Source: Rutstroemia sp. NJR-2017a BVV2 (taxonomy: Eukaryota; Ascomycota; Leotiomycetes; Helotiales; Rutstroemiaceae). From it: 64,000 bases of DNA. The stretch spans positions 310,001 to 374,000 of the forward strand of contig NJPS01000035.1 in assembly GCA_002946415.1 (NCBI GenBank), read 5' to 3'. Below, in pieces: positions 17,573 through 58,080 of this stretch (the stretch's first letter is position 1; every line of letters begins with the position of its first letter). A program made the position numbers and the translations under genes. The notes beneath the pieces are model-generated. The model ran no database searches, was not told where the DNA came from, and saw only the letters and a program-made list of their open reading frames with translations.

Positions 17573-18361
17573 TTGCCTGGAGCAGAATACATTGTATATT
17601 CGGAGTTAGTTGATAACATGGATATAGAACATAGATTCAGGGAATTGCACAGGTGTTTGACGATACAGACGACATATGGGTAGCAGAATACGAGTTGGGA
17701 AGGTCTTTTTGATGGTCAGGGGCATTGGGAAGGTACCGCAGGGTGTAATATCAGCTGTAGGTCGCTGCTGGACCAGTTGTTGTGGCTGGGTGATGTGGCT
17801 AGGGCCGTGGTGGCTGCCCCTATCGACGACCATGCTCTCCTTAAAGCGATTGTCTTTTCAATCGTGGAATCACAACTTCGTTCAGTGCATATTGCGTTCA
17901 AAGAACAACTTCAATCCATATAAGTTGGAGCAAGTTTTCCCCGAAAACATGAGCAAGTACTCTCGATGTAGTCATCGGCTGTGGCAATCTCGCTGCATTC
18001 CACAAGGTGGGGGAGAAATGCCAATCAACAGAAAGGAAAAACAATTTCCCACAAGAAAGAATGCACTCTCAGTGACGATGCATTCCTGATGAGATGCCCA
18101 CGAGAGTCCTAGATCTCTATTATTTTCTTTACTTTTTCCTTTTCGTACCTTCACGCGAGGATCATACATCAAATTTTTACCGCCAATCTGTTCAATCGTT
18201 TTCGATCAGATATTATGCCAATTTCTTCGGTTCTTGACAGTGAGGTTCAGGTCGAAATTACATTCATTTAGGTTTTGCGATTGGAACGAAGCAAGGGCAA
18301 CGACAATATCGCGTTTGGCATTCGAAGGTTATCGACAAACTCCATCAATTCAATATTCAAC
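17573..18361. other. Intergenic
   Basis: No supported gene. A plus-strand open frame at about 17676-18089 lacks domain signal and is matched by an equally open minus frame. The end of the stretch is the leader of the following membrane-protein gene. Confidence 0.5.
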
Positions 18362-21300
18362 ATGGTGCCTTTGAAATTAGCGCAGAGGCAAGAAGTGACC
18401 ACGCAGCTTCCGGTCGGGTCATCCTTTATTTCATTCGGCGCAATAATTGGTATCGTTATCGGTGTAGCTATGGCATTGATCGTTGGTGGAGTAGGGATTG
18501 CGATATACAATATACGAAAAACTCGGAAACGCGAAGCGCTACGAGCGAAAGGGAAGGATGTAGAAATTGGTCAAAATGTAGCGGTCATGGTTCGAGCCAA
18601 TCCGCCATCTTTTCTATATCCGACATTTGGATCTCCTTATGATTCTATGCCAATTCGACAAGTTAGCACACCATCAGGATTTGTGGAGAGCGAGGATGAA
18701 GATGATAACATCATCAGACCAAATACGAAGAGGTTCTCGGAACAGAAAAGCATTTTCCGAAAATCGGGCATCAGAGATTCTTGGCCATTGGCTTCTTTCA
18801 ATCAGATGTCCACGAGACAATTCCCTCTACAAGTTGTTTCATCTCCAAAGAGTTTGAAACAACCCCCTGAAAGAAATATTCGACTCAATTGTGTAGCTCC
18901 ACCTGGATATGTTCTTCCAGACGAACCTCAAAAGCCAACCAGGACCTTTTCGAGACGTGCTCAAGCGAAGAACTCGGATTCTGTGGAAGATATTACAATT
19001 ATTGATGGAGAACCTACCGTCTCACGTGGCCGCACTAGACAGCGATCATCTTCTGAGAATCAGCTGTCTGTTATTCTAAAATCGACCTCACAACGTCTGA
19101 GAGATACTCAAAGACGTTCACTTGGTCGATTTCCGGGATCACTTCCAAAGCAAAGATTGCCTACTCCACCTGTAAATAACGCCACTGAGAGTAGAGAACT
19201 CCTCATCCGTCCCGATACAGCATCATCGGATGTGGGATCTCAACATGACAAAGAACTATTCCGTACACCGAGTCCGGGTAAAAAAGTGCCAAGAACAGCG
19301 GGAAGAGCGTTCCAAAAACGAGGAAGATCACCCACACCATCTGGACACTCTGATGATGATAGTCTCTGTGGTATCGACACCCCTGATCTGGTCATCCCAG
19401 CACAACTTACTTCTCCTAGTAAGAGTGGACGCAAGTTTGAGCAGAGGCACCTGATGAATCTTTCGACGAGTAAAATCCCCGCGCCCAAAATCCACCAGGC
19501 TGCAAAACCGTCTGTGGGTACGATAGATAAGACCGACTTTGGAATATCTCCTCAAATTCTCGCAAACGATCCATTCCTGTCAATCAAAGGTGCCAAGCCC
19601 ATCTCATCCTCCCAAATGTATGAACCCCGACCGCTGCATATTCGAAAAGCTACATTTGGACATCATGCAGCCGAAGAGAAGCCTCTCGCATTTATCGACT
19701 CCTCACTAAAAGATACATCCGTCAATCAAGCAGGCGCACTCGTCAAAGAACCCAAATCCCCAACTCCATTCAAGGAACCAAACCCATTCCAATGGTCACC
19801 AAAAGAAGCAATGCAAGTCCGAACCTCCAGCCCCAGTAAAATCGGACCCAAGAGAAAAGGTCACAAACGCTCCAACATCGTGCGGATATCCGGCCTCCCT
19901 CGGCCATCGAGCGTTTCCGTTGTACACGAAGAATCAGAAGACGACTCCTCCCCTCGCGCTCTCCGCCGCATCATCTCCCGCCCTACTATGCGTGTTGTGG
20001 AGAAAAGTCCTTCATGCACATCTCTCTCGCTGGGTAGTCGTAGATCCAGTGCTGTGCGACCTCCTTCGTCGTTGACATTTAATCCCATCTTGTCTATCCC
20101 TACGCTTATAAAACCCATCTCTCCACCTGATCAAGGTCTCGAAGACTACTCTCCCACTCTCTCCGTCTATAACTACTACGCCGAGAACCTGAACTCGGAA
20201 GTTGAGTTTTTCAAACATGCCCGGTCATCCCTGGCGCTGAAATCACAGGTTAAGAGACATTGTAAGGAGATCGAAGAGGAGGAACCAGATACACCGAGCG
20301 ATATTCTTGTTTCATTCCCGCCGTTTTCGATAAAGTCAGACGATGATAAAGACGTCCAAATTTTAGCTGATATTCCGGAATCCCCAGCTCAAATTCCAAG
20401 CTCACCGCCGCCGATTCGTCCCCTCGCTCTACTACGCACTGCCAAAGCCAACCTTTCAAGCCCTATTCACATGCCTCCCCCTAAACCCAGCTCGATGCAA
20501 ATACCTCGCCTTTCAACAAGCAATATATTCGGTCCCCGCCCACTATCCCGTATCTCCGTCAACTCAAACAACAACTCCACCCTCAGCCTCCCCATCAAGC
20601 CCCTCACCCTCTCTCTCCCCGCTCCTCCCCTCCTCACCATCCCCACCCCAGTGCACCTTACAGGCCCCCGTCCCGAGCCCAGAAAACTCTCCTCTTTCAC
20701 CAGCACCTCCTCCTCAACGCGGGACTCCATCGCAACTAGCATCGGGTTATTACGCCGTATGAATTCCGAGATCTCGAATTATAGTCCCTCGGGTATGGAT
20801 TCGTCTCCTATTGACGGGGCGGGAAGTGCGAATGGGGGAAGCGCGAGGGGAAGTAAATATTACCTTTCTCTCGGCGGTCTCGGGACACTTGGAAGGATTA
20901 ACGGGAATGCGACAGCGACCCCTATAACTCCCGCCAGCAAAACCGTAAATTCCCCCCGCAACAGCTCATCCCGCTCTCCATCTCCAATAACCAAACGCGC
21001 GTCCGAAGTCTTCGAGCGCTGGCGTCGGGATGGTGGGATTGATGAGGGGAGGAGGAGTAGAGAGGGGAGTAAAAGTCGGGTGGGGAGTATGAGGGATAGT
21101 ATAGGGAATGGGAGTCGAAGTAGTAGCCCGCTGGCGATGGGGAAGCACGGGTTGGATGTAGAGAAGAAGAGGTGGTCGATGACGTTGTTGCCGGATGGGG
21201 GGGTGGAGATTGTGGAGGATGAGGGGGAGGGGTTTTGGGGTGGGGTTTTGGGGCAGGGGCATGGGATGGTTTTGGGGAGGGGGAGGGAGGGGGAGAAGAT

Positions 21301-21568
21301 TAAGGAGAGGTGGGGGGAGAGGTGGATTGGAGTGGCGGGGGAGGATAAGAATAGGAGGGGGGATGGGGAGAGGTGGGGGGTGGAGAGGGATAAGGAGAAT
21401 ATTAATTTGGATGGGGGAAGGGAAGGAGAGGTTCTAGAGAGGCCGGAAAGTTTGGGTTTATATGATGAATATGGATTTTTGAAGACGTCGCCTAGTCGAG
21501 GGGGTGAGGGAGCTGAATTTGGAGTTATTGGCGATGGTCGAAAAAGGATGACTGAGGTAAGAGTGTGA
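18362..21568 (+). CDS. Large single-pass membrane protein with disordered Ser-rich tail
   Basis: This is a single exon from ATG 18362 (MVPLKLAQRQ) encoding about 1068 residues. The frame is open a little further upstream, but only from a TTG. Residues 1-20 precede one Gly/Ile-rich transmembrane helix (about 22-48, FGAIIGIVIGVAMALIVGG) followed by a basic stop-transfer cluster (RKTRKREALRAKGK). The remaining thousand residues are serine/proline/arginine-rich and apparently disordered, with many SP and RRxS sites, consistent with a phosphorylated cytosolic tail. No catalytic domain is visible. The 3' third is extremely strand-biased, pyrimidine-rich then purine-rich, and its protein becomes Gly/Glu/Arg-rich. 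I do not recognise a named family; a membrane-anchored scaffold is a guess. Confidence 0.85.
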   Translation: MVPLKLAQRQEVTTQLPVGSSFISFGAIIGIVIGVAMALIVGGVGIAIYNIRKTRKREALRAKGKDVEIGQNVAVMVRANPPSFLYPTFGSPYDSMPIRQVSTPSGFVESEDEDDNIIRPNTKRFSEQKSIFRKSGIRDSWPLASFNQMSTRQFPLQVVSSPKSLKQPPERNIRLNCVAPPGYVLPDEPQKPTRTFSRRAQAKNSDSVEDITIIDGEPTVSRGRTRQRSSSENQLSVILKSTSQRLRDTQRRSLGRFPGSLPKQRLPTPPVNNATESRELLIRPDTASSDVGSQHDKELFRTPSPGKKVPRTAGRAFQKRGRSPTPSGHSDDDSLCGIDTPDLVIPAQLTSPSKSGRKFEQRHLMNLSTSKIPAPKIHQAAKPSVGTIDKTDFGISPQILANDPFLSIKGAKPISSSQMYEPRPLHIRKATFGHHAAEEKPLAFIDSSLKDTSVNQAGALVKEPKSPTPFKEPNPFQWSPKEAMQVRTSSPSKIGPKRKGHKRSNIVRISGLPRPSSVSVVHEESEDDSSPRALRRIISRPTMRVVEKSPSCTSLSLGSRRSSAVRPPSSLTFNPILSIPTLIKPISPPDQGLEDYSPTLSVYNYYAENLNSEVEFFKHARSSLALKSQVKRHCKEIEEEEPDTPSDILVSFPPFSIKSDDDKDVQILADIPESPAQIPSSPPPIRPLALLRTAKANLSSPIHMPPPKPSSMQIPRLSTSNIFGPRPLSRISVNSNNNSTLSLPIKPLTLSLPAPPLLTIPTPVHLTGPRPEPRKLSSFTSTSSSTRDSIATSIGLLRRMNSEISNYSPSGMDSSPIDGAGSANGGSARGSKYYLSLGGLGTLGRINGNATATPITPASKTVNSPRNSSSRSPSPITKRASEVFERWRRDGGIDEGRRSREGSKSRVGSMRDSIGNGSRSSSPLAMGKHGLDVEKKRWSMTLLPDGGVEIVEDEGEGFWGGVLGQGHGMVLGRGREGEKIKERWGERWIGVAGEDKNRRGDGERWGVERDKENINLDGGREGEVLERPESLGLYDEYGFLKTSPSRGGEGAEFGVIGDGRKRMTEVRV
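20550..21450 (+). other. Polypyrimidine block followed by polypurine block inside a CDS
   Basis: The sense strand is strongly C/T-rich at about 20560-20720, then almost C-free and G/A-rich at about 21030-21450. Adjacent Y-rich and R-rich blocks on one strand can in principle pair with each other or form triplex DNA. The reading frame stays open throughout. Confidence 0.7.
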
Positions 21569-27829: not shown

Positions 27830-28834
27830 TCAATCCTCCTCAATCTCGAAAGTAATAACATACTTTTTCCCACCCCTCTTTCCCACCTCTGGATAAATAT
27901 CTACAGCACCTTCCAGATCGACCGCAGTAAATGATTCTTCTAAAGGCGCTTGAATGCTTCCTTTCTCGAACATTTCTGTTAAGTTCGTCATGATTCTCTT
28001 TACTTCGATCAAATCGAGATTCCAGCTATTTACCCCACTTATACTTTGATCCATCTCCAGGATCTTCCCAACATCGACTTTCACTTCTGGTACAGCATCA
28101 CTCATGTCTGAAATAAATATATATCTTCCCCCCTTCCCCAAAATCTCAAGTCCTCTCTCCATCAACGCCGCCGACCCCGCACAGTCAAAAATCACATCCG
28201 GTCGCTTACCCCCATTTATGTCCAAAACAGACGCAAGTTCCTCATCGAGACTTATATTCACGTCCACCCCATCTCTTCGCGATGCCCGGATAACTCTACA
28301 CCCCTTAGCAGCTGCAATTTCTCCCGCAGCATTCCCCACGAAACCCGTCGCCCCGAAAATTAGAACCACTTCCCCGGCACAAAGTCGTGCACGCTCACAC
28401 ATCACATACGCCGTACAGAAAGGCACCCCCACAGCACCTGCCTGTATCCAACTTAAATTTTCCGGCTTCCTCACCAAACAATCCTCAGGCATAACCACAT
28501 ACCCTGCATGTGTCCCCGCCCGCTGCAAACTCAACTCCCTGCCCGAACTTCCGTACACCGCATTCCCAACCAAGTCTGGCTGCGTCTCGTGATGCACAAT
28601 AACCCCCGCATAGTCTCGCCCGGGAATCATCGGCTTCAGACCCCCGGGGTGGTCGTGCAGGGCGTTGAAGTAGTCGGAGGAGTGGATGCCGGCGGCGTGG
28701 ACGCGGATCACGGCGCGGGGGACGGAGAGGGAGGAGAGCAGGACGTAGAGGTACTCGATGGAGAGGTCAAGTTGGAGGGTTTGGTGGATGGTGGGGCAGG
28801 AGAGGAGGGCCGGGATGTGCGAGGGGATGTGCAT
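27830..28834 (-). CDS. MDR-superfamily (quinone oxidoreductase-like) reductase
   Basis: This is an intronless frame of 334 residues from ATG 28834. After a short variable N-terminus it shows the medium-chain dehydrogenase/reductase plan. The GroES-like part reads VIRVHAAGIHSSDYF and PMIPGRDYAGVI, with AGAVGVPFCTAYV at the domain boundary. The Rossmann part is GEVVLIFGATGFVGNAAG with strand RVIRASRRDG, then PDVIFDCAGS and LGKGGRYIFI. No cysteine pattern for zinc is seen, which fits the zinc-free NADPH quinone reductase/enoyl reductase branch. The N-terminus is unusual: the frame runs open upstream without ATG, so the true start may lie in another exon. Its first 30 codons have a diverged copy at about 30063-30160. 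It neighbours OMT, P450 and SDR genes on the same strand. Confidence 0.82.
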   Translation of the reverse strand: MHIPSHIPALLSCPTIHQTLQLDLSIEYLYVLLSSLSVPRAVIRVHAAGIHSSDYFNALHDHPGGLKPMIPGRDYAGVIVHHETQPDLVGNAVYGSSGRELSLQRAGTHAGYVVMPEDCLVRKPENLSWIQAGAVGVPFCTAYVMCERARLCAGEVVLIFGATGFVGNAAGEIAAAKGCRVIRASRRDGVDVNISLDEELASVLDINGGKRPDVIFDCAGSAALMERGLEILGKGGRYIFISDMSDAVPEVKVDVGKILEMDQSISGVNSWNLDLIEVKRIMTNLTEMFEKGSIQAPLEESFTAVDLEGAVDIYPEVGKRGGKKYVITFEIEED

Positions 28835-29382
28835 GGTGGGGATGGGGGGGGGGGTGACGGTGCTAAGGAGTTGGATTTGTGAGATGGATATGGATGGGAT
28901 GCGGAAAATTGTGCAGATTGATTGCGTCAGCTGGATAAGTACTCGTGGTGAGTATTGATGCGGAGATAAGTTGAGTTGTAGTTGTGATTTTACGTACGTG
29001 AGGTATTACGGATGCCCATTAAGGCGACTGTGGTGAGATTACAGTATCAAATGCGGGGCACGCAGGGCTACAAGGTACCCTAGAACCCATTCTTAGGCGC
29101 ATTGTTACCCTTTCTTGATTAGTTGTTGGATTTGTTGTCTATATACGCGCTGTCTACTTGCATTTGGGAACCCTTTCTTCTCTGCTTTTACATTTTTAGT
29201 CTTTTCCCGTTTTACATTTGGGAGCCTTTTCCGGGTTTTTCCCTCTCATACTTGCGTGTCTTTCCCCCTCTATATTTGCGAGTCCTTTCCACTTCAGCGA
29301 CGCTTAGTTGCAACCTGCGGCCGATTGTGACATTTTGGCCACTTAGCCATGCGAATCACACCCATATGCCAGCACCTTTCCT
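28835..29382. other. Intergenic; left flank of the Rep element
   Basis: No gene is supported. About 29150-29300 holds several degenerate copies of a ~20-35 bp unit of the type TACATTTGGGAGCCTTTTCC. The left boundary of the Rep-bearing insert is probably somewhere in this stretch but is not marked by an obvious terminal repeat. Confidence 0.5.
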
Positions 29383-29469
29383 AAGAGAGCGATGTTATGA
29401 CAAGAAAGCGATGTTATGACAAGAGACCGATGTTATGACAAGAGAGCGATGTTAGGCTAAGTAAGCGAG
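29383..29469 (+). repeat. Iteron array: four 19-bp direct repeats plus a partial copy
   Basis: AAGAGAGCGATGTTATGAC repeats head to tail at 29383-29401, 29402-29420, 29421-29439 and 29440-29458, with one or a few substitutions, followed by a partial unit AAGTAAGCGAG. The array ends 12 bp before the first ATG of the Rep frame. CTTAGCC at 29342-29348 and GGCTAAG at 29455-29461 form an inverted pair around it. In CRESS-DNA replicons short direct repeats beside rep serve as Rep-binding iterons at the origin; that role here is inference. I did not find a clear TAATATTAC-type nick site. Confidence 0.8.
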
Positions 29470-29540
29470 ACGCGCTAGACATGTCGTATTTATACCTGCT
29501 CACTTTCACATTCTTTTTCATGATGTGTTTACATGTAACT

Positions 29541-30062
29541 ATGGCGGTACGCAAGATTAAGAGCAAGAAGGGTGCTGACCGTTTGAAGGCCAAAGTTGTG
29601 GAAAACTTGTCGGTCAATGAAGTTGATTTTGAGGAGTCAACATTTAGTTTGGGAGGTACGTTGGCTTTTGTCACTTGGTCGCGGAGTACCTATGTGGAGG
29701 ATGAAATACAGTTGTTTGAGGAACATTTGAAGGCAAAGCTGCCTGTTGACACGCAGTATTACGGGGCTTTTGAGTTGTATGAAGATGGATCGCCACATTA
29801 TCATGTGTTTATTGAGCTGCCGAGCCGAGTCAATTGGGCGGATGCTAGGAGCAGGTTTATGTTACGCGATGGCGACACCAATGCTATTAATATTCAGCGG
29901 TTGAGAAAGGGCCTGTCTCCCAGGGCATTTCGGGCTCGTGCTTATGATTACATTGAGAAGGATATTGCGGACGGAGTTGAGAAGCCCAAGGACTGGATAT
30001 TTGGAAAGAAGCCGCTGAATAAGAGTGCTGTTGCTGCGAGAAAGAGACAGGGGAAGGTGTAG
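29541..30062 (+). CDS. rep: CRESS-DNA virus-like Rep, HUH endonuclease domain only
   Basis: This is an intronless frame of about 173 residues from ATG 29541 (MAVRKIKSKK). The frame is open from an earlier ATG at 29481 that would add a hydrophobic 20-residue leader. Rolling-circle motifs appear in the usual order. Motif I is in LAFVTWSRS (about residues 42-50). Motif II is the HUH pair in SPHYHVFIEL (about 84-93). Motif III, with the catalytic tyrosine and following lysine, is YDYIEKD (about 136-142). Spacing matches geminivirus/genomovirus-type Rep catalytic domains, which nick and join single-stranded DNA at the origin. The SF3 helicase domain (Walker A/B) that follows in full viral Reps is absent; the frame ends in a basic tail. 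It could be an endogenized viral fragment or a domesticated or plasmid-like Rep. The intact frame with adjacent iterons argues against simple decay. Confidence 0.85.
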   Translation: MAVRKIKSKKGADRLKAKVVENLSVNEVDFEESTFSLGGTLAFVTWSRSTYVEDEIQLFEEHLKAKLPVDTQYYGAFELYEDGSPHYHVFIELPSRVNWADARSRFMLRDGDTNAINIQRLRKGLSPRAFRARAYDYIEKDIADGVEKPKDWIFGKKPLNKSAVAARKRQGKV

Positions 30063-30262
30063 AGGTTGAGTTGGAGTTGCAGGATACGGTGGATGGTAGG
30101 GCAGGAGAGGAGGGCGGGAGAGGATGGTGGGGATGCGGGAGGGGATTTCGGGGAATAGGAGTATGGAATTGAGGGGAGAGGGGGAGAATGGAGAGAACTG
30201 CTGAGGCTGGGGGGCATGGGGAGGATTGTTGTTGATATAGTCATGGTGTGTCTATTATGGTG
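30063..30262 (-). pseudogene. Truncated second copy of the MDR reductase N-terminus
   Basis: The minus strand reads PALLSCPTIHRILQLQLN, closely matching PALLSCPTIHQTLQLDLS at the start of the MDR gene at 27830-28834. On the plus strand, GGTGGATGGTRGGGCAGGAG is shared. Similarity stops exactly at the Rep stop codon, where the minus frame becomes the antisense of rep. The simplest reading is a tandem MDR paralogue cut by insertion or replacement by the Rep-bearing DNA. Confidence 0.6.
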
Positions 30263-30398
30263 TAAAAAACATACGTGGCAAGTCATCAGAAGTTCAATTC
30301 TAATACTTGCTTCTGCAGAGCTCAGTACACAAAATATAATCCACACCACGGTCCCCTCCCCTCTCGTCATCCCACTAATCTCTCCCCCTCCCCAAACT

Positions 30399-31817
30399 CT
30401 ACAACCCCGCCACAATAACACTCAACCTAAAAGCCCACGTATACGTCACCACCCTCCTAACCCTCAACCCCACCCCCTCCAGCAGCTCCCCCCACTGCTT
30501 TTCCGTCCTCTCCATCGACCCAAAAGCAGCCAGCATAGTCAAATCCGTCTGCGTAGCAAACCAATCCACGCCCTCGTTCGGGAGCACCATTTCATCGAGC
30601 AAGATCAGGGATTCTGAATCCATGGCTTGCATTATGTTCTTCAATATCAATCTCGCTTTGTCGTCGGCGTGGTCGTGGAGAATGGCGCGGAGATAGTATA
30701 TTTTGGCGCCTGGGGGGAGATGATTAGCTATGTAGTACTTTGGGGGAAAGATCGGTCTCGCTAACTAACCTTTGATGATCTGAGGCGTGTAGAAATCGTG
30801 AACGATGGCTTCTACACCCTCTGGTAAGCCTTGTGAGATAGCATGCTCGATTTCTCCAGGCAGATCCTGGAAGATAACCCGACCCTTGATATTAGGGAAT
30901 CGTCTCCGGAACTCAATACACTGCTGCCCCGACGCTCCCCCAATGTCAACAAATACGGGCTTCTCCGCAGGCCAGTTGCCACACTCTTCCTCGATAGGGA
31001 AGAAATTAAAGCAGTTGGGTGTGCTGGACCGCTGAGCCAGCATAAACCGGTTAAACTGCGCTGTCTCTTTCGGACGGCTTTGGAACCAGGTCCACAGCGG
31101 GAGGTCCGTGTTCCAAGCTTTTTGGAACGCAGCTTTGTGTGTTTCCGTTGGACTTTGGTAATTGGCAGCCGCAAGGAAGTCCGGGAGCGCTTGGTAGGCG
31201 GGGCCGAGGACGTCGAAGCTACGGGGTGGCGGTTAGTTGTGGGTGATGATGGAGATGGGGCAGAGGAGGGGGGTGGGGAAGGAGGAGAGAAGACGTACTT
31301 GTGGTATATCCCGGCTTGGGATTCTGGCGAAAGGAGGTTGTTCGATGTAGTGCTGGAGGTGAATTCGTTTGTGCCGGTTTCTTTGATGATTCCTAATGAA
31401 GAGAGCATACGCAGGATTCGTCCTGTGCAAAACCGCCATCAGAATTCTTCTTCCCTTGAGTCTTGACATACACTCAAAATTATACTCACCCAATAATTTT
31501 TCTTCAGCGCCTATCTTGGACGAAAGTTCATCTACATGAAGAGGAGAAGAACTCCCGCCAAGTATATCGAAAAGCTTCAGGTCCAGCGCAACTCGGACGA
31601 TAGATAGCACTAGATGCTTTATTTATGAATCATTAGAATTCGCGATATGATGAGAGGGGCAGCCCACCAGATGTATGACTCTTTGCATAGTATCTTCGGG
31701 GTTTTCAATCGAGTACTGGAGATCTCTTAGAGCGTTCATAATTTCCTTGCGGCCGGCTTCATCTGCCATAGCGGCTGATTTCTGTATCTCGGTGGTGAGC
31801 TTCTGGATTGCTTCCAT
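30399..31817 (-). CDS. SAM-dependent O-methyltransferase
   Basis: Five exons (31817-31668, 31616-31490, 31422-31299, 31218-30770, 30709-30399) keep frame through four introns with GTGGGC, GTGAGT, GTACGT and GTTAGT donors, giving about 386 residues. The N-terminal half has the dimerisation/winged-helix region (VRVALDLKLFDILGG, LGRILRMLSSLGIIKE). The SAM-binding motif is VFVDIGGASGQQCIEF, followed by VIFQDLPGEIEHA and the conserved KIYYLRAILHDHADDKA, whose HD contains the catalytic-base histidine of this family. LILLDEMVLPNEG is the last core strand. Fungal members methylate phenolic hydroxyls of secondary metabolites. Its neighbours on the same strand are an MDR reductase, a P450 and an SDR, so a tailoring role is plausible; the substrate is unknown. 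Confidence 0.88.
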
Positions 31818-32262
31818 TTTGCGAATGTCTTTCGTCGAATGATGGATTTAACAAAACTCTGAAGGGAAAGAAAATGCGCAGTTTGGTGTGCTTCAACTTG
31901 GTTCAAAGTTTTGTCTAGATGGTTATACGGCACTTGCGTTAGGTCCCAGACTGCAGGCGTGCGGCGTGAACTGTGCTGTGAGTTGTGCGTTGTGAGTTGT
32001 GCGGCGTAAGTTATGCGGTGTTGGATCATGTTGTTGGTGAAGTGAACGATTCAAAATACTCCGGGTAAAAAGTACGCCGAAAATAGCTTCGGAGTTTACT
32101 CCTAAGTTCATGTTCACAGATGATGACTTTAAAGGCCATTTCTCAGTCTGTATTCATAGCTATATTACCTCACCTGGATGCTTTTCAATCTTTCGTTCCT
32201 CCTTTCTCTCCACACACCTCGCAACCACTCTCTCAGTCATTTCACAACCCCTCTTACTCTAA
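31818..32262. other. Intergenic; OMT promoter
   Basis: This spacer separates the OMT start from the P450 stop. It includes a degenerate GTGAGTTGTGCG-type tandem repeat at about 31955-32026. No gene is visible. Confidence 0.6.
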
Positions 32263-33982
32263 TCACCTCCCCCTCCTCCTAAATTCCACCCCCGGACCAT
32301 CCTTTAAACTCGTAAAACTATCCCTCAACTGAAACTCCCCCCTCTTCTCCCTCCCCCAAACATCCCCCTCCCTCCCCTCCCCCAGCGTCCCCGCCAACCT
32401 CATCTCATATAACCACACCACCCTCGCCAAACTCGTCATCAACTCCACATACGCGACTCCCTTCCCAATACAACCTCTAGGACCAATACTAAAGGGACAG
32501 AAAGCCGATTGCGCTACTGCTGCCGACTTCTCGTTGATCCAGCGCTCTGGTAAGAATGAAAATGGGTTTGGGTAATACTGCGGGTTGTGGTGGATAGCGT
32601 AGTGCGGCACGCCGACTACGTAGCCCTCGGGGATATGTAGACCATCGACGTCCAAGCCACCAGAAAGGACTTCGCGTGGGAGAAGACCGCCAACGGGAGG
32701 AGACATACGCATTGATTCGTCGATTACGGCGCGGAGGTAGGTGCAAGTGTTTAATGTCGGGCCTGAATGAATATCCTCGACGTCTTTGAACGTGGTCAAG
32801 ATCTCCCTCGTTAGAATCTCCAGCTTCTCGGGGTTATGGACAAGATAAAAGAATGCGGCCGCAAGAGCTGTAGATGTGGTGTCTGATCCGGCGATGATGA
32901 GGAGATTGCTTTCGCCCCAGAGCTCGGGAGTAGTAAAGCCTTGACCGGTTTCGGCGTCGCGAGCGTTAAGGAGGTAGTAGAAGAAGTCTTTGCGGTCTGT
33001 TTCGAGGCCGATTTTGGTGCGTTCGAGAGCTTGCGCTTTGCTGTAGGCCATGTATTTCATTCTTTGGGCGTAGATTTTAGAGAAGAGAAGTTTGCTTAGG
33101 CCGGTGGTTTTAATTAGGGGGTAAGTGCCAGTCTAGAGATGGAGTTAGTGTCGAGTTGACGTGGGGTGGTTGGGAACTTACGATCAAATGAGTGTGAGCA
33201 GCATTTCCGATCAAGTCAATCACATGCCGGTTTGTGGAATGTTCAAGCATTTCGAATGCTTTCCCAAAACAAAGATCTCCCATAACGTCAAATGTCAAAT
33301 AGTTACACCAATCGGACATATTCTGAGCAATTCCCCATCCATCATTGTTTGGCTTCTCCAAATAGGATCTGGGTTGGTAGAGGTTGTTGCAGAAAGTCCT
33401 AACATTAGCTAGGATATATTTTTCCATCGATTTGATAGCACCATCAGAGAATGCATGGGAAAGAACTCTTCTCTTTCTTGCATGACTGGCCTTGTCAATG
33501 CTACTATGCGTGTTGAATGTATCCTTGGTTGGTGGGAACACCGAGTAGAATTGCGACTTCTTAACATTCGACTTATGACCATAGATAGTTTTCAAGGCCG
33601 TATTTGTATTGATCGACAGACTATCAGGGCCATATCTGAAGACAGGACCTGCGAGATTTAGTATTGCAATACAACACAAGTAAGTCGAACTCACCATATT
33701 TCTCATGACATCTCCAAAACTCCAGATGTCTATCACCTTTCCATGCATGATAAACCGAATACCAATCCGTGATTTTCGCAAGGAATGGTCCAGGATATTG
33801 CGCAAGTGGATGGAACGTTAGACGGTAGAGGGTTAGGAGGGTGAGCTGGGTTGAGATCAGCAACATATCATGTAAGGAATGAGACTGATACTCACATATG
33901 CAATGGAAAGAGCTGGAAGGAGCACCGACGTCCAAAACAACCAATTGATGAAAAATGAAGCGACAGAAGGTTCGTCCATCAT
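32263..33982 (-). CDS. Cytochrome P450 monooxygenase
   Basis: Four exons (33982-33896, 33845-33695, 33648-33182, 33132-32263) encode about 524 residues. The introns carry GTGAGT, GTGAGT and GTAAGT donors and CAG, CAG and TAG acceptors. An N-terminal membrane anchor ([18 protein letters not shown]) is followed by the proline hinge [18 protein letters not shown]. Hallmarks are the I-helix oxygen-binding site [17 protein letters not shown], the ExxR motif [12 protein letters not shown], the PERW segment SFLPERW and the haem loop [18 protein letters not shown] with its cysteine ligand. It is a standard fungal ER-bound P450, probably acting with the adjacent OMT and SDR on a small molecule. A CACGTG-centred motif lies about 0.9 kb upstream. 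The substrate cannot be inferred. Confidence 0.9.
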
Positions 33983-53222: not shown

Positions 53223-53460
53223 TTGAGAGACGAGGTTTATGGAGAAGATTACGGGGTTGGAGAAGGTGAAGCCGAAAGCGAAGGCGAGGGAGAAGGGCAA
53301 GCCAAAATCGATGGCGAAGGAGAAGGGGAAGCTAAAGCCGAAAGCGACGGCGAAGGGGAAGGGAGGCTGAGGCCGAAAGCGACGGCGAAGGAGAAAACGA
53401 CGGCAAAGGAGAAGGGAAGGCCAAAGCCGAAAGTGATAGTGAAGAAAGGTGGAAGCCGAA
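53223..53460 (+). repeat. G/A-rich minisatellite, lysine- or glutamate-rich in translation
   Basis: Diverged units of the type GCCGAAAGCGACGGCGAAGG repeat across this stretch. One frame reads Gly/Glu, another KPKATAKEKGK. Because all frames are low complexity, an open frame here is not evidence of a gene. Confidence 0.7.
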
Positions 53461-53726
53461 AGGGACTAGGGGCAACCTCCGCTGCAAAGTTCTCAAAGCC
53501 CTCTTCGTGCCTGCAAGGAAGCCGAAAGGGACTACCTCTGCTACAAAGTGCTCAAGGCCTCTTCGCGCCCCCGCTTCTAAGTCCTAAACGAACCCCACAA
53601 CTCTTCACCCATCACACCGGAGAAAGGGCCACCAGTTAGCCAACCGGGAAACGCCCATTCACTGAATATTCGAGCCTATCCATCAGCCCGCACACGACAG
53701 ATCATTGTCGATTAATTTCTCCAACT

Positions 53727-54590
53727 CTCCTGCAGCCTCACTTTTCGCGTACTGTCAAGGTCTTTCGACGACTGGTATCTATAAGGAAGCCTCACTTTTC
53801 GCGTACTATCAAGATGTTTCGAAGACTAGTATCTATAAAGATGTCGTCACAAGGTGGTTTCTCTAAAAAAGGCTGGTACAGACGCGACCTGGCACTTTCA
53901 CGTCAAGCTCATCGTCCCTGGTGAAGGAAGCCGAAAGGGACGCCACATTCGACACCCGCACCGACTACGACGGACACACATCTTCCACGGTTTCTTCTTC
54001 TTGCTTCGTCTGACTCGCAGAAGCTTCAGACATTTTCTCTGCGGATCTTTCCAGAGTAACCAATGCTTCTAACTTTTCTTATTCCTGTTTCCCTTCGAAG
54101 TGCTTCGAATGCAATGTAATATACAAAGACCAGATCGTGCTACTTATATATATCGAGAGCAAACTGTATAATATATGTTGGGTTCTGAGTATGATTAGTA
54201 CGGACTGAGAGGGGTATTAAGAGCTGGATTTGTATATTCTATAATCCTGATATGATATATGATTTTGGGTGTATGATTTTATTGCTGATGATGTAAATAC
54301 TAAGTGGCCGAAATCGATGTACGAAATGGAGGTCCTGTGAGGAGTTTGATGATATTTACTCAGTAGCTGCTTTTTATCTAGCTTTCTTATTTGGTTCTTG
54401 TATCTTTTACTGTGAGTATGAAGGACGGCTTAGCTCTTATATGTAAAGACCAGATCGCGGAGATACCCGCGCCGACTACGAAGGAAGCCTCAACTTTTCA
54501 CATACTGCCAAGGTCTTTCGGAGACTGGTATCTGTAAGGAAGACTACTTTTCGCGTACTGCTAAGGTCTTTCGAAGACTGGCTACTGGTT
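53727..54590 (+). repeat. Dispersed ~57-bp repeat, four copies
   Basis: The unit CTCACTTTTCGCGTACTGTC..AAGGTCTTTCGAAGACTGGT..ATCTATAAGGAAG occurs at about 53727-53786, 53788-53843, 54484-54540 and 54541-54590. It comes as two tandem pairs about 0.7 kb apart. A shorter GGAAGCCGAAAGGGAC unit recurs near 53450, 53517 and 53927. No coding function is apparent. Confidence 0.75.
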
Positions 54591-54714
54591 CCTGGCCTCT
54601 GGAATCGCATATGATAAAATTTTGTTGTTGAGAGATCCTCAACAGGATCAACGATTTTGCCTGGGAGGTCGCTGAAGATAGTTATGCAGAGTGTAAACAT
54701 TAAGGCGATCAAGG

Positions 54715-55130
54715 ACAATAGGGCAAGAAGGGACATTAGGGCGAGTAGGGACATTGGGGCGGGTAGGGACATTGGGGCGATTAGGGACATTGAGGTAAGC
54801 AGGGGCATTAACACGAGCAGGGACATTGGAGACGTTACAGATGTTGTATAGGCCAAGAACATTACGGCGAGCAGGGACATTGAGACAGGCAGGGACATTG
54901 AGACAGGTAGAGACGTGGAGACGAGTAGGGACATTGGAGGGTTACGGTTTACGAATATTGAATAGATGAAGGATATTACGGCGAGTAGGAACATTGAGAC
55001 CGCCAGGGACATTGAGACAGATAGGAATATTGAGACAGGCGGGAACATCGAGAGAAGCAGGAATAATATTAAGATGAGCATAGACATCGGTTCAAGCAGG
55101 GATATCAGGGCGAGGAAGGACTTTGAAGGG
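54715..55130 (+). repeat. 18-bp minisatellite (AGGGACATTGGGGCGAGT type)
   Basis: About twenty diverged 18-bp units read SRDIGA-like hexapeptides on the plus strand, interrupted by stops, and a hydrophobic MSLLAL-like frame on the minus strand. The open minus frame (54476-55087) is a by-product of periodicity. Confidence 0.8.
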
Positions 55131-55240
55131 ATTTAGAATGTTTAATCAATTAAGGACATTATACCAAGCAGGGACAAGACCTCTTCAGTATCCGGTCGCA
55201 CTAGGAAAGAGTAGGTCACATGTACATCCATTTCTCGAGG

Positions 55241-55423
55241 ACCAAGCTATGTCTCATGAGCACTAATCGTCTCCTCATGTTCTGAGAGCGTGGCTTCGCG
55301 CACCAAGCTATGTCTGATGAATACTAACCGCCTCCTCACGTGTTGAGAGCGTGGCTTCGCGGACCAAGCTCTATCTTATGAATACTAACCGCCTCCTCAC
55401 GTCTGAGAGCATCGCTTCGCGGA
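55241..55423. repeat. Three tandem 61-bp repeats
   Basis: Copies at 55241-55301, 55302-55362 and 55363-55423 start ACCAAGCTATGTCT and end GCGTGGCTTCGCG. On the minus strand a unit reads LSTREEAVSI, resembling LTKREEAVSI of the adjacent coiled-coil fragment. The array is probably decayed, frame-shifted coiled-coil coding sequence. Confidence 0.75.
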
Positions 55424-55490
55424 GTAAGGGAGAGTCGCGGAGCAAGGGAGAGTCGCGGAGCAAGGGAGAGTCGCGGAGCAAGAGAGAGCT
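55424..55490. repeat. 18-bp tandem repeats (GCAAGGGAGAGTCGCGGA)
   Basis: Three near-identical units plus a partial fourth unit lie directly after the 61-bp array. Confidence 0.9.
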
Positions 55491-55491
55491 C

Positions 55492-55791
55492 TCACGAGTC
55501 GAAAATCGGCTTGACAGATTGTTCGAGTATACTAACTGCTTCTTCTCGTTTGGTGAGTGCGGACTCTTGTGTTTTGAAGGCAGCTGAATGTGCAGACTCT
55601 CGTGTTTTGAAGGCAGCTAGACGTGCAGAGACCTCTTGTTCGCGTCTATTAAGATCGCCAGATCGGCGTTCGATTGCCCGGAGGAGATTATTGGCCATCT
55701 GGGCCCAATGTCCAGTCGCACTGAGATGCTGATCTAGATCCCCTTGATCCGAGAAGAGTAAGTCGCATTGGTCACATTTGTAATACCAAAA
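55492..55791 (-). pseudogene. C2H2 zinc finger plus coiled-coil gene remnant
   Basis: On the minus strand from about 55791 the frame reads YYKCDQCDLLFSDQGDLDQH then LSATGHW, a C-x2-C-x12-H-x5-H finger. It continues through MANNLLRAIERRSGDLNRRE into a coiled coil with repeated AAFKTRESA/AAFKTQESA units, stopping at 55492. Diverged copies of the finger's second half occur nearby (INQHLSTTGHW near 55890; CDLLFPSATGY near 55200). No start or flanking exons were found. It looks like the remains of a tandemly duplicated zinc-finger gene. Confidence 0.5.
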
Positions 55792-56699
55792 GTAATACCA
55801 CTTCTAGCGAAGTACTGGTTATGCTATATGACTGGCCATTCTCACAACATTCAAGACCTCTCCAGTGTCCGGTCGTACTGAGATGCTGATTTATATCCCG
55901 CTGAGCACCATAGGTCTTTCTGTATATACTGTCAATGTTTGTCGCGGCCCCGAATGTTGTAATCCGTTCAATGTCCCAAACTGTATGAATATTCCCAAAT
56001 GTATGATTATTCCTGCCATCTTCCCATCCGCCCTTTCAGCTCCGCCCTCTCCCCATCCGCCCTCTCCCCATTCGCTCTTTCCCCATCCCCCACCAGCAGT
56101 ACTCCACCCACCCTCAGCAGCAGGTGCAGCTTCGGCAGTCTCAACAGTGGCCCCCATCCACCAACAGCAGCAGGCGCAGCTTAGCCAGTCTCAGTAGCAC
56201 CCTATCCACCAGCACCATCACCAGCACCAGCATCACCTGCCTTTTCGCCATCTCCCTCGCCACCTGCATCTTCATCATCGGACTCATCATCAAAGTAAGA
56301 GCTTGTACATCGCCAGTCTGGTTATTGCCAATCTGTTCATCGATAGTGAAACCTTCTGGAATATGCTCCTGAAGGAATCAGTGGTAGCATCGCCTGCTTT
56401 TTCGCCGTCTCCTCCACCACCTGCATCCTCATCATCGAACTTATCTTCAATCGCTGGCAAATACGATGTTATTTGGCTTGTAATTGATGGACTCCATGAT
56501 ATGATGTGACTCCATAACTGGAACTCCTCGAAGATATCATCGCTGGTAGAGCTGAATTAGCGGATGTTCTTTGGTTTGTAATTGTTGCAATGATGGACTC
56601 CATGACTCCCTGTGTGTGTTGGTTGGGCCCTGTGATATTTGTTGAGTTGGCGATGAGGAAGCAGCAGCAGTCGATTTTCCTGCTGCGTTGGTTTCGCTT

Positions 56700-56880
56700 G
56701 CGATGAGGACGAGCTCTCCGGTGCAGAAATGACAGGCTGGCAGGCAGGCAACAATATCCAAACGACAACTGGACAATTAAACATTATAATCTCTTAGATT
56801 ATTTCGAACATTAGTTGGGTAACAGTAATCAACACTAATGTATTATCCCAAACCCTCCTGTTCTTTCTCCTCTGAAGAGA
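56700..56880 (-). repeat. Dispersed ~150-bp repeat, copy 3 (minus)
   Basis: Read on the minus strand it contains GGGTTTGGGATAATACATTA, GAGATTATAATGTTTAATTG and GCCTGTCATTTCTGCACCGG, in the same order as the other copies. Confidence 0.55.
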
Positions 56881-56892
56881 ACGACAGTTGGC

Positions 56893-57345
56893 ATACTGGA
56901 TGGTGTTTTGTCGTCCCTGGGCTGCAGTATCTGCCATGTGACGACCGGTCAGAAGTCTGGATGAATATTTCGTTGTCGAAACCCTTCGCAATCCGCCGAA
57001 GAAGCATCTGTACGGCGGCCCTCATTATCAGCAGAAGTCTGGATAAATAAGATGCTGCTCTTTTGGAAGAGCCGGTGGAATACGAGGCACCGGAGACTGG
57101 CGAATCGGGTGAGCAAGAATTGGATAGACCTGAACCGGAAATTATCGAAGCACGAGGGCCAGGTCCCTCGGAATCTGAGGAGCTTGAAGAATTAACACTA
57201 GTGGGGTCTGCACATGACCTTCATTTCTATTTTGTCGACCACTCTGGTTGTTTAATTGTCCATTATACATGCATTGTGCTGAGCGCTGCCGGCATACTGG
57301 ATGATGTTTTGTCGTCCCTAAGCTGCAGCCAGCAGAAGTCTGGAT
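56893..57345 (+). repeat. Direct duplication within 56.9-57.35 kb
   Basis: CATACTGGATGGTGTTTTGT followed by CGTCCCTGGGCTGCAG and CAGAAGTCTGGATGAAT at about 56894-56965 recurs at about 57293-57345. A third CAGAAGTCTGGAT is at about 57032. They are same-orientation copies about 400 bp apart. Confidence 0.7.
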
Positions 57346-57347
57346 GA

Positions 57348-58080
57348 ATGCCGCGAGTGAGCAAGAATTGGATGGACCTATTGAGACGAGAGTTAAAAGA
57401 TGATATCGACAGGATTTTGCCTCTCCACTTCCCAGGCCTCTGCTACGACTTTATCTTCAGCAGCAAGCAAGTTCATCTGGAATTACCTTCCATGTATTGT
57501 GTTGAGCGCAGATGGTATGGAATATTTGTTCGGCCTTAGCTGGGGTGGAGGTTCTTAACATTGATTACTTCCAATGGAAAGTTGAGCATAATCGTACCAA
57601 TAAGCAATTGGCAAGTGGAGCTGAGCCTGACTTGGCCAAAATACGGGGAGGTAGCTTGGACAAAGTACTTGCCCTGTTGCATTGGGAAATTGAAACTGGT
57701 AAGATAGTCTCCGAGACTACTATAAGAGCGGATAATGTTATAGAGGTGTGGCTCTCTAGGAATAAGGATCTCATAGAATCGCCTAGTCAGGGTTCTATAA
57801 TACAGCGAATATATCGTATTATATCGAAATAAGGGCCTTGCTGCCCGGAAGGCAGGAGGATGGGCTGGATTTGCTAAGGCCCGTTCTATCCAGAAGGCAA
57901 ATGGAAATTCTGAACTTGCTAAGGGCCGTGCTACCCAGAAGGCAAATGGAAATCCTGAACTTGCTAAGGGCCGTGCTATCATGGCGGCACAAGGAAATCC
58001 CACGTTGCTTTAGCTACTGCTGCACGTATAGTAGCTGCTGTGACACGACATGCTACGAAGACAAGGGCGCTACAGAACAG
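57348..58080 (+). pseudogene. Broken unknown gene with 45-bp in-frame repeats
   Basis: Short consecutive frames have protein-like sequence (WMDLLRRELKDDIDRILPLH; GGSLDKVLALLHWEIETGKI; NVIEVWLSRNKDLIESPSQG) but are separated by stops and frame changes. At 57874-57963 two tandem 45-bp units encode AKGRATQKANGNPEL-like repeats, followed by further coding-like sequence past a stop. I do not recognise the family. Multiple breaks suggest a decayed gene. Confidence 0.35.

Follow-up and report, generated by a model that had tools for sequence, protein, structure and literature searches.

The question raised by this stretch of a fungal chromosome is whether a short open frame bearing the motifs of a rolling-circle replication protein (Rep) is indeed such a protein, and, if so, whether it is a captured fragment, a mobile element or a gene now used by its host. 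The window, i.e., the whole stretch of DNA analysed, comprises 64,000 nucleotides from Rutstroemia sp. NJR-2017a BVV2 (C29:310001-374000; genome searched, 43.4 Mb in 79 contigs). In the ORF list, a forward stop-to-stop frame of 207 codons runs without interruption from 29439 to 30062, ending in a TAG stop codon at 30060-30062. Based on this ORF and on Pfam, PDB and fold searches, we assigned a rep-like gene to 29541..30062 (forward strand), the predicted product of which is a 173-aa CRESS-type HUH endonuclease domain without a helicase. The start at ATG 29541 is suggested by its start context and a TATA-like site upstream, and the in-frame extension at 29439..29540 (forward strand; ORF list and sequence), which holds more ATGs (29481 and others), is probably leader rather than protein.

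A motif scan of the product recovered the three rolling-circle motifs described in the sequence-only reading, and in the same order: motif I (FVTWS, residues 43-47, 29667..29681), motif II (ELYEDGSPHYHV, residues 78-89, 29772..29807, also placed by the 6q1m alignment and containing PHYHV at residues 85-89), and motif III (DYIEK, residues 136-140, with YIEK at 137-140; 29946..29960), all on the forward strand. Motif I, the HUH motif and YxxK are signatures of rolling-circle Reps, and their order here is as expected for CRESS-type Reps. We take H86 and H88 of motif II to be the HUH histidines and E78 to be a likely metal ligand, with Y137 and K140 of motif III as the presumed catalytic residues. 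The same scan placed INIQ at residues 116-119 (29886..29897, forward strand), similar to the NIQ of geminivirus-type Reps, an equivalence drawn by visual comparison with the 6q1m segment, which the HMMER alignment placed differently. The pairing of a HUH motif with a single catalytic tyrosine is described in the accessible part of PMC7826260.

As judged from its sequence, the assignment of the frame to the Reps is above chance. The Rep identity first proposed held in part, in that the 173-aa product matched Rep families in Pfam, with both matches below the curated cut-offs: REP_ORF2-G2P (PF23343) at E 2.9e-5 (24.7 bits; cut-off 27.8) and Gemini_AL1 (PF00799) at E 0.019 (15.4 bits; cut-off 24). 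A PDB sequence search gave seven weak matches (E 0.035 to 0.41), six of them Reps, and the best match, 6q1m (wheat dwarf virus Rep), has 10 of 12 letters the same as ELYEDGSPHYHV. Within the CRESS-type Reps, the frame is most likely geminivirus/genomovirus-like, and we leave the exact group broad. That this is a chance open frame with Rep-like words, a reading favoured by the family scores below cut-off, by the lack of any homologue of the product at E 10 in a 5.8-billion-protein collection, and by non-specific fold matches, is very improbable: the four motif blocks stand in Rep order, a Rep family is matched at E 2.9e-5, and two structure models agree in their strand-helix order.

Both of these models were of low confidence (mean pLDDT 50 and 69), and the strand-helix order common to them, b-a-b-b-a-b-a, is correct for the HUH fold. 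The wheat dwarf virus Rep ranked 1st in one PDB Foldseek search and 3rd in another, with identities to geminivirus Reps of 15-24% in the Foldseek matches. The PDB fold search held zero matches at E 1e-3 or better, and in the structure searches Rep domains near the top were tied with unrelated ferredoxin-like folds (ACT, ribosomal S6). Viral fold matches at E <= 1e-3 numbered 18, comprising 11 without a name, five named CRESS-type Reps (the first from the Genomoviridae, E 7.4e-5), an ORF2/G2P-domain phage protein, and an uncharacterised rudivirus protein. The low confidence of the models and the ties with unrelated ferredoxin-like folds weaken the structural support for a Rep.

A stand-alone helicase-less HUH Rep, ORF119 of SIRV1 (2x3g), is the best PDB structural match in one of the Foldseek searches (Foldseek rank 2/1, VIA-align rank 1/8), with the differences that it is an archaeal virus protein of 11-16% identity to the product and that unrelated folds reach the same match level. 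This match would suit an integrated helicase-less Rep of the plasmid type, bacterial in origin (pE194/pMV158-like or phage G2P/ORF2-like) rather than from a eukaryotic virus, as would the top Pfam family, REP_ORF2-G2P, and the helicase-less Reps of pE194/pMV158-like plasmids noted in the part of Kazlauskas et al. 2019 (PMC6668415) available to us. However, ELYEDGSPHYHV is close to its counterpart in the geminivirus Rep 6q1m, and no significant relative was present among plasmids, phages or prokaryote genomes, so that we regard a plasmid-type Rep as distinctly improbable. Plasmids and phages gave two and four records, respectively, at E 0.5 to 5 (none significant; one is a microvirus replication initiator, E 5), and 93 stretches of prokaryote genome contigs fit a pattern, with none confirmed as a relative. 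In viral contigs, 10 stretches fit a pattern and none was confirmed as a relative of the product, while a motif-pattern scan of the same contigs for further CRESS Reps returned zero. PHROGs yielded a single family of unassigned function (E 0.17) and NCBIfam no match. This lack of a significant relative leaves descent from a known virus putative; for fungi, absent relatives mean little, the collections being proteins, viral contigs, prokaryote genomes, plasmids and phages.

The frame lies on a contig of 435,817 bp amid oxidoreductase, O-methyltransferase and P450 frames. Contamination is therefore unlikely, the initial placement of the frame in a chromosome holds, and a CRESS-type HUH domain within a genuine chromosomal setting is supported. 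Eukaryotic Pfam families around the locus (Gtr1/RagA, Nucleoprotein TPR, 2EXR) agree with a fungal host. On one side lies a zinc-binding dehydrogenase/quinone oxidoreductase-like gene (27830..28834, minus strand; Pfam ADH_zinc_N and ADH_N, start set by eye), and the next gene after rep, on the opposite strand, is an O-methyltransferase with its 3′ exon at 30399..30764 (minus strand; Pfam Methyltransf_2 at E 1.1e-14, matching the end of the profile). We did note that the oxidoreductase, O-methyltransferase and P450 frames sit close together on the minus strand at 27830-33132, an arrangement resembling part of a cluster for secondary metabolism. Elsewhere in the window, an open frame of 1098 codons (18272-21568, forward strand) is without a Pfam family at E 0.001. 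In the wider assembly, contigs C25 and C74 gave matches at identical coordinates (314638-314838, 476027-476125, 794296-794403 and 394576-394593), which suggests that one stretch is present twice.

The SF3 helicase is missing, in agreement with what had been read from the letters: the frame stops 33 residues after motif III, and none of the nine other stop-to-stop frames at 29097-30693, on both strands, has a Pfam match to a helicase. The same nine frames hold no transposase match and no capsid match at E 1, a search that a very divergent capsid would escape; their best Pfam matches, at E 0.035 and 0.15, are to unrelated families and far below cut-off. The locus had also been called origin-like, a description which the searches did not bear out. 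The nonanucleotide TAATATTAC, in the variant searched, is absent from 29001-30062 at up to one mismatch, and there is no stable hairpin, with shuffled versions of the region 29290-29540 folding about as well as the region itself (z 0.53; equal or better in 132 of 200 shuffles). The inverted repeats said to flank the array upstream of the frame are an 8-bp pair (ACTTAGCC at 29341-29348 and GGCTAAGT at 29455-29462) at chance level, with at least one such pair present in 76 of 249 window segments of equal size.

The array itself is real (29383..29458, forward strand, TRF; consensus AAGAGAGCGATGTTATGAC, 3.8-4 units of 19 bp in tandem), with a TRF score of 130 and 3.8 copies over 29383-29454. Of the four direct repeats first reported, three are good units and the fourth is degenerate, ending in AGGCT in place of ATGAC. 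An 18-base form of the unit matched the genome 34 times: the three matches with 0-1 mismatch are all at this array, and the other 31 carry 2-3 mismatches, compared to 40 matches for a reversed-pattern control. Arrays scoring at least 130 with a period of at least 10 number seven in the 64 kb of the window and three in 104 kb elsewhere, the latter being 34 loci drawn by pattern, DNA or P-loop matches and not a random sample. By our own arithmetic, the chance of such an array lying within ~160 bp upstream of the start is ~0.5-2%, which makes its place next to the rep frame suggestive, its binding by the product being putative. A dense cluster of strong tandem arrays is also present at 53259-57980 of the window, with periods of 18-61 and seven rows scoring at least 130.

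The array is followed, ahead of the rep ATG, by a TATA-like site, TATTTATA (29487..29494, forward strand), a motif match only. Array, TATA-like site and rep start are arranged much as iterons and rep promoters are in geminiviruses. Further upstream, a repeat search found a second, degenerate tract of ~24-bp, CATTTGGGAGCCTTTTC-like units (29158..29290, forward strand; TRF 29238-29290, score 71). Between this tract and the array, DNA searches picked out a 52-nt segment (29326..29377, forward strand) that is 85% identical to one other site, C43:1522844-1522894; the two may share a promoter module, or the segment may mark where an element ends. A TATA-like site follows this segment ~110 bp downstream here and ~45 bp downstream at C43. 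Around the C43 match, neither tblastn (3 kb searched; best E 0.15) nor blastn (9.9 kb searched) picked up a Rep remnant.

The recurrence of this segment at C43 bears on whether the locus is the lone copy of a minimal HUH transposon, either Replitron-like or of another helicase-less single-tyrosine type. In the accessible text of PMC10741241, Replitrons are 0.9-4 kb in size with direct terminal repeats of 5-11 bp and no TIRs, and a size of ~1 kb with a helicase-less HUH protein would fit that description. There is also a direct pair (14/15 bp; 28970-28984 and 30065-30079) around the frame that was reached in none of 100 resamples. Against this, the 15-bp pair exceeds the described 5-11 bp and its right member touches one copy of a duplication discussed below (copy B), the C43 match is just 52 nt long and its searched surroundings yielded no Rep remnant, and there is one copy in 43.4 Mb, with the array at this locus only. 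Indeed, the 173-aa protein and PF23343 match the genome at this locus alone, and a DNA query of 29290-30270 returned itself, copy A of the duplication and the 52-nt match on C43, so the further iteron-linked copies looked for in this genome are absent, rep and array each being single. No inverted repeat of at least 14 bp occurs in 28400-31000, and the suggestion of a mobile element is left without support on these grounds, namely a single rep and array, no such inverted repeat, and an ambiguous direct pair. Replitrons (Craig 2023, via the accessible parts of PMC10741241 and PMC13231165) are, like this locus, small HUH endonuclease elements without TIRs; by their description, they differ in that here there is no second copy and there are no defined termini, and fungal hosts are unlisted there. 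PMC10741241 is a review on plants, the accessible text of which names no hosts beyond green algae and seedless plants, and so it speaks neither for nor against a Replitron in fungi. Taken together, we consider a transposon of this kind improbable.

The absence of a helicase is most simply explained by a duplication with one copy on either side of the locus. Pairwise alignment identified copy A (28763..28879), covering the 5′ end of the oxidoreductase gene and its upstream region, and copy B (30068..30171), in direct orientation and beginning 6 bp past the rep stop. Under strict gap costs, 85 of 103 ungapped columns are identical (82.5%) with four gap openings; the extent varies with gap costs, cheaper gaps widening the ends, and we do not claim the wider ends. 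The alignment scores 211, whereas 300 dinucleotide shuffles of both stretches reach no more than 132, and other pieces of the window, in 1550 scores covering both strands, no more than 110. This suggests that the rep frame ends at or beside a rearrangement junction, where the fragment would have stopped short of the helicase. On its left, the insert would begin somewhere between 28880 and the 19-bp array. The link between duplication and insertion is itself putative.

If the duplication does date the insertion, it speaks to the age of the frame. By our arithmetic, copies A and B have diverged by ~0.1 substitutions per site per branch. In simulations of a neutral 519-bp frame (4000 runs), 14% escaped stops at 0.1 without indels, and 0.25% escaped both stops and frameshifts at 0.1 (0.15% at 0.116), with one indel assumed for every 10 substitutions. 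On that dating, the frame is thus unlikely to have survived neutrally, and its staying open at such divergence favours either selection or an insertion younger than the duplication that it entered. The endogenization had been proposed to be recent, for which we find no support, and the 82.5% identity of the flanking duplication disfavours it if it dates the insertion. Codon use provides no help here, given that the rep frame lies within the host range in a leave-one-out comparison on eight Pfam-supported frames (11 segments), and base composition likewise gives no foreign mark. An apparent signal of foreign codon use, in which the frame fell under all 12 host frames compared, was rejected, as those frames had trained the reference.

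Co-option by the host is accordingly possible though unproven. A domesticated gene would be one in which the HUH domain is under selection in this lineage, serving either as a nickase for the host or as an antiviral decoy that would bind related replicons at their origins, with the 19-bp repeats controlling it. The intact frame of 173 codons with its neutral survival of 0.25% at 0.1 (if A/B dates the insertion), the four intact motif blocks, the TATA-like site and good start context (judged by eye), and the open endogenous Rep frames of other fungi, of which the Magnaporthe oryzae one is expressed according to the accessible part of PMC3198968, all argue for it. However, the duplication may predate the insertion and then dates nothing, 14% of the runs simulated without indels keep the frame open at 0.1, and the codon use says nothing, so we rate domestication as doubtful. 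A more specific version, quite unlikely in our estimate, is a domesticated helicase-less CRESS-type nickase with its own array, which would bind and regulate its own promoter and jam or nick the origins of related ssDNA viruses, and which has no close relative in the searched collections.

The reading that we prefer, and hold to be somewhat better than an even bet, is that of an endogenised, helicase-less rep fragment of a CRESS-type replicon with its frame still open. A fragment of a rolling-circle replicon would have been captured between the oxidoreductase and O-methyltransferase genes, probably as a break was repaired, an event that would also have duplicated the 5′ region of the oxidoreductase gene. 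It would have kept the promoter side of rep, the 19-bp repeats and the HUH domain, and not the SF3 helicase or capsid. The viral or plasmid origin, the truncation at the junction and the order of events are inferred, whereas the open frame, the motifs, the array, the single copy and the duplication beside the stop codon are observed.

This kind of locus is already known. In the accessible text of Liu et al. 2011 (PMC3198968), geminivirus-like Reps are listed in Aspergillus, Trichoderma, Magnaporthe, Nectria, Tuber and Laccaria, i.e., several ascomycetes and a basidiomycete, some of the endogenous sequences surveyed have open frames, and expression is reported in Magnaporthe oryzae. These are likewise CRESS/geminivirus-type Rep coding sequences in fungal chromosomes; in contrast to their description there, the present frame consists of the nuclease domain only, is single copy, adjoins a 19-bp array and matches Gemini_AL1 below threshold. 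Section 8 of the same paper, as far as it is accessible, gives 42 Rep genes or remnants in Tuber melanosporum and a transposon with 37-bp TIRs and two transposase frames. That geminivirus-like transposon shares with our locus a Rep-like frame in a fungal genome, whereas here there is one copy, no nearby inverted repeat of at least 14 bp and no transposase match. With geminivirus and genomovirus Reps (wheat dwarf virus, 6q1m), the product has motifs I-III, NIQ and the modelled b-a-b-b-a-b-a order in common, but the locus is without their SF3 helicase, capsid gene and TAATATTAC hairpin. Among the literature matches listed, in which subscription journals are thinly covered, no title or opening of an abstract reports a nuclease-only frame with an array in fungi. 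An intact nuclease-only frame with a private array is a modestly unusual case of a known kind.

If expressed, the product of the captured fragment is predicted to bind the 19-bp repeats and to nick and join ssDNA via Y137, with H86/H88 and E78 holding the metal. Nicking and joining of ssDNA is our best guess for the activity, going by the retained HUH histidines and YxxK tyrosine, and binding of the array with self-repression is a second step that we infer. Replication is not expected, since the protein has no helicase and alone could not unwind DNA, and the likeliest present effect is therefore none, or repression of its own promoter together with interference with related replicons. An intact nuclease-only frame beside a diverged junction would be a good candidate for a host-used viral gene, and the locus, with one gene, one repeat array and one junction, provides a small, testable case.
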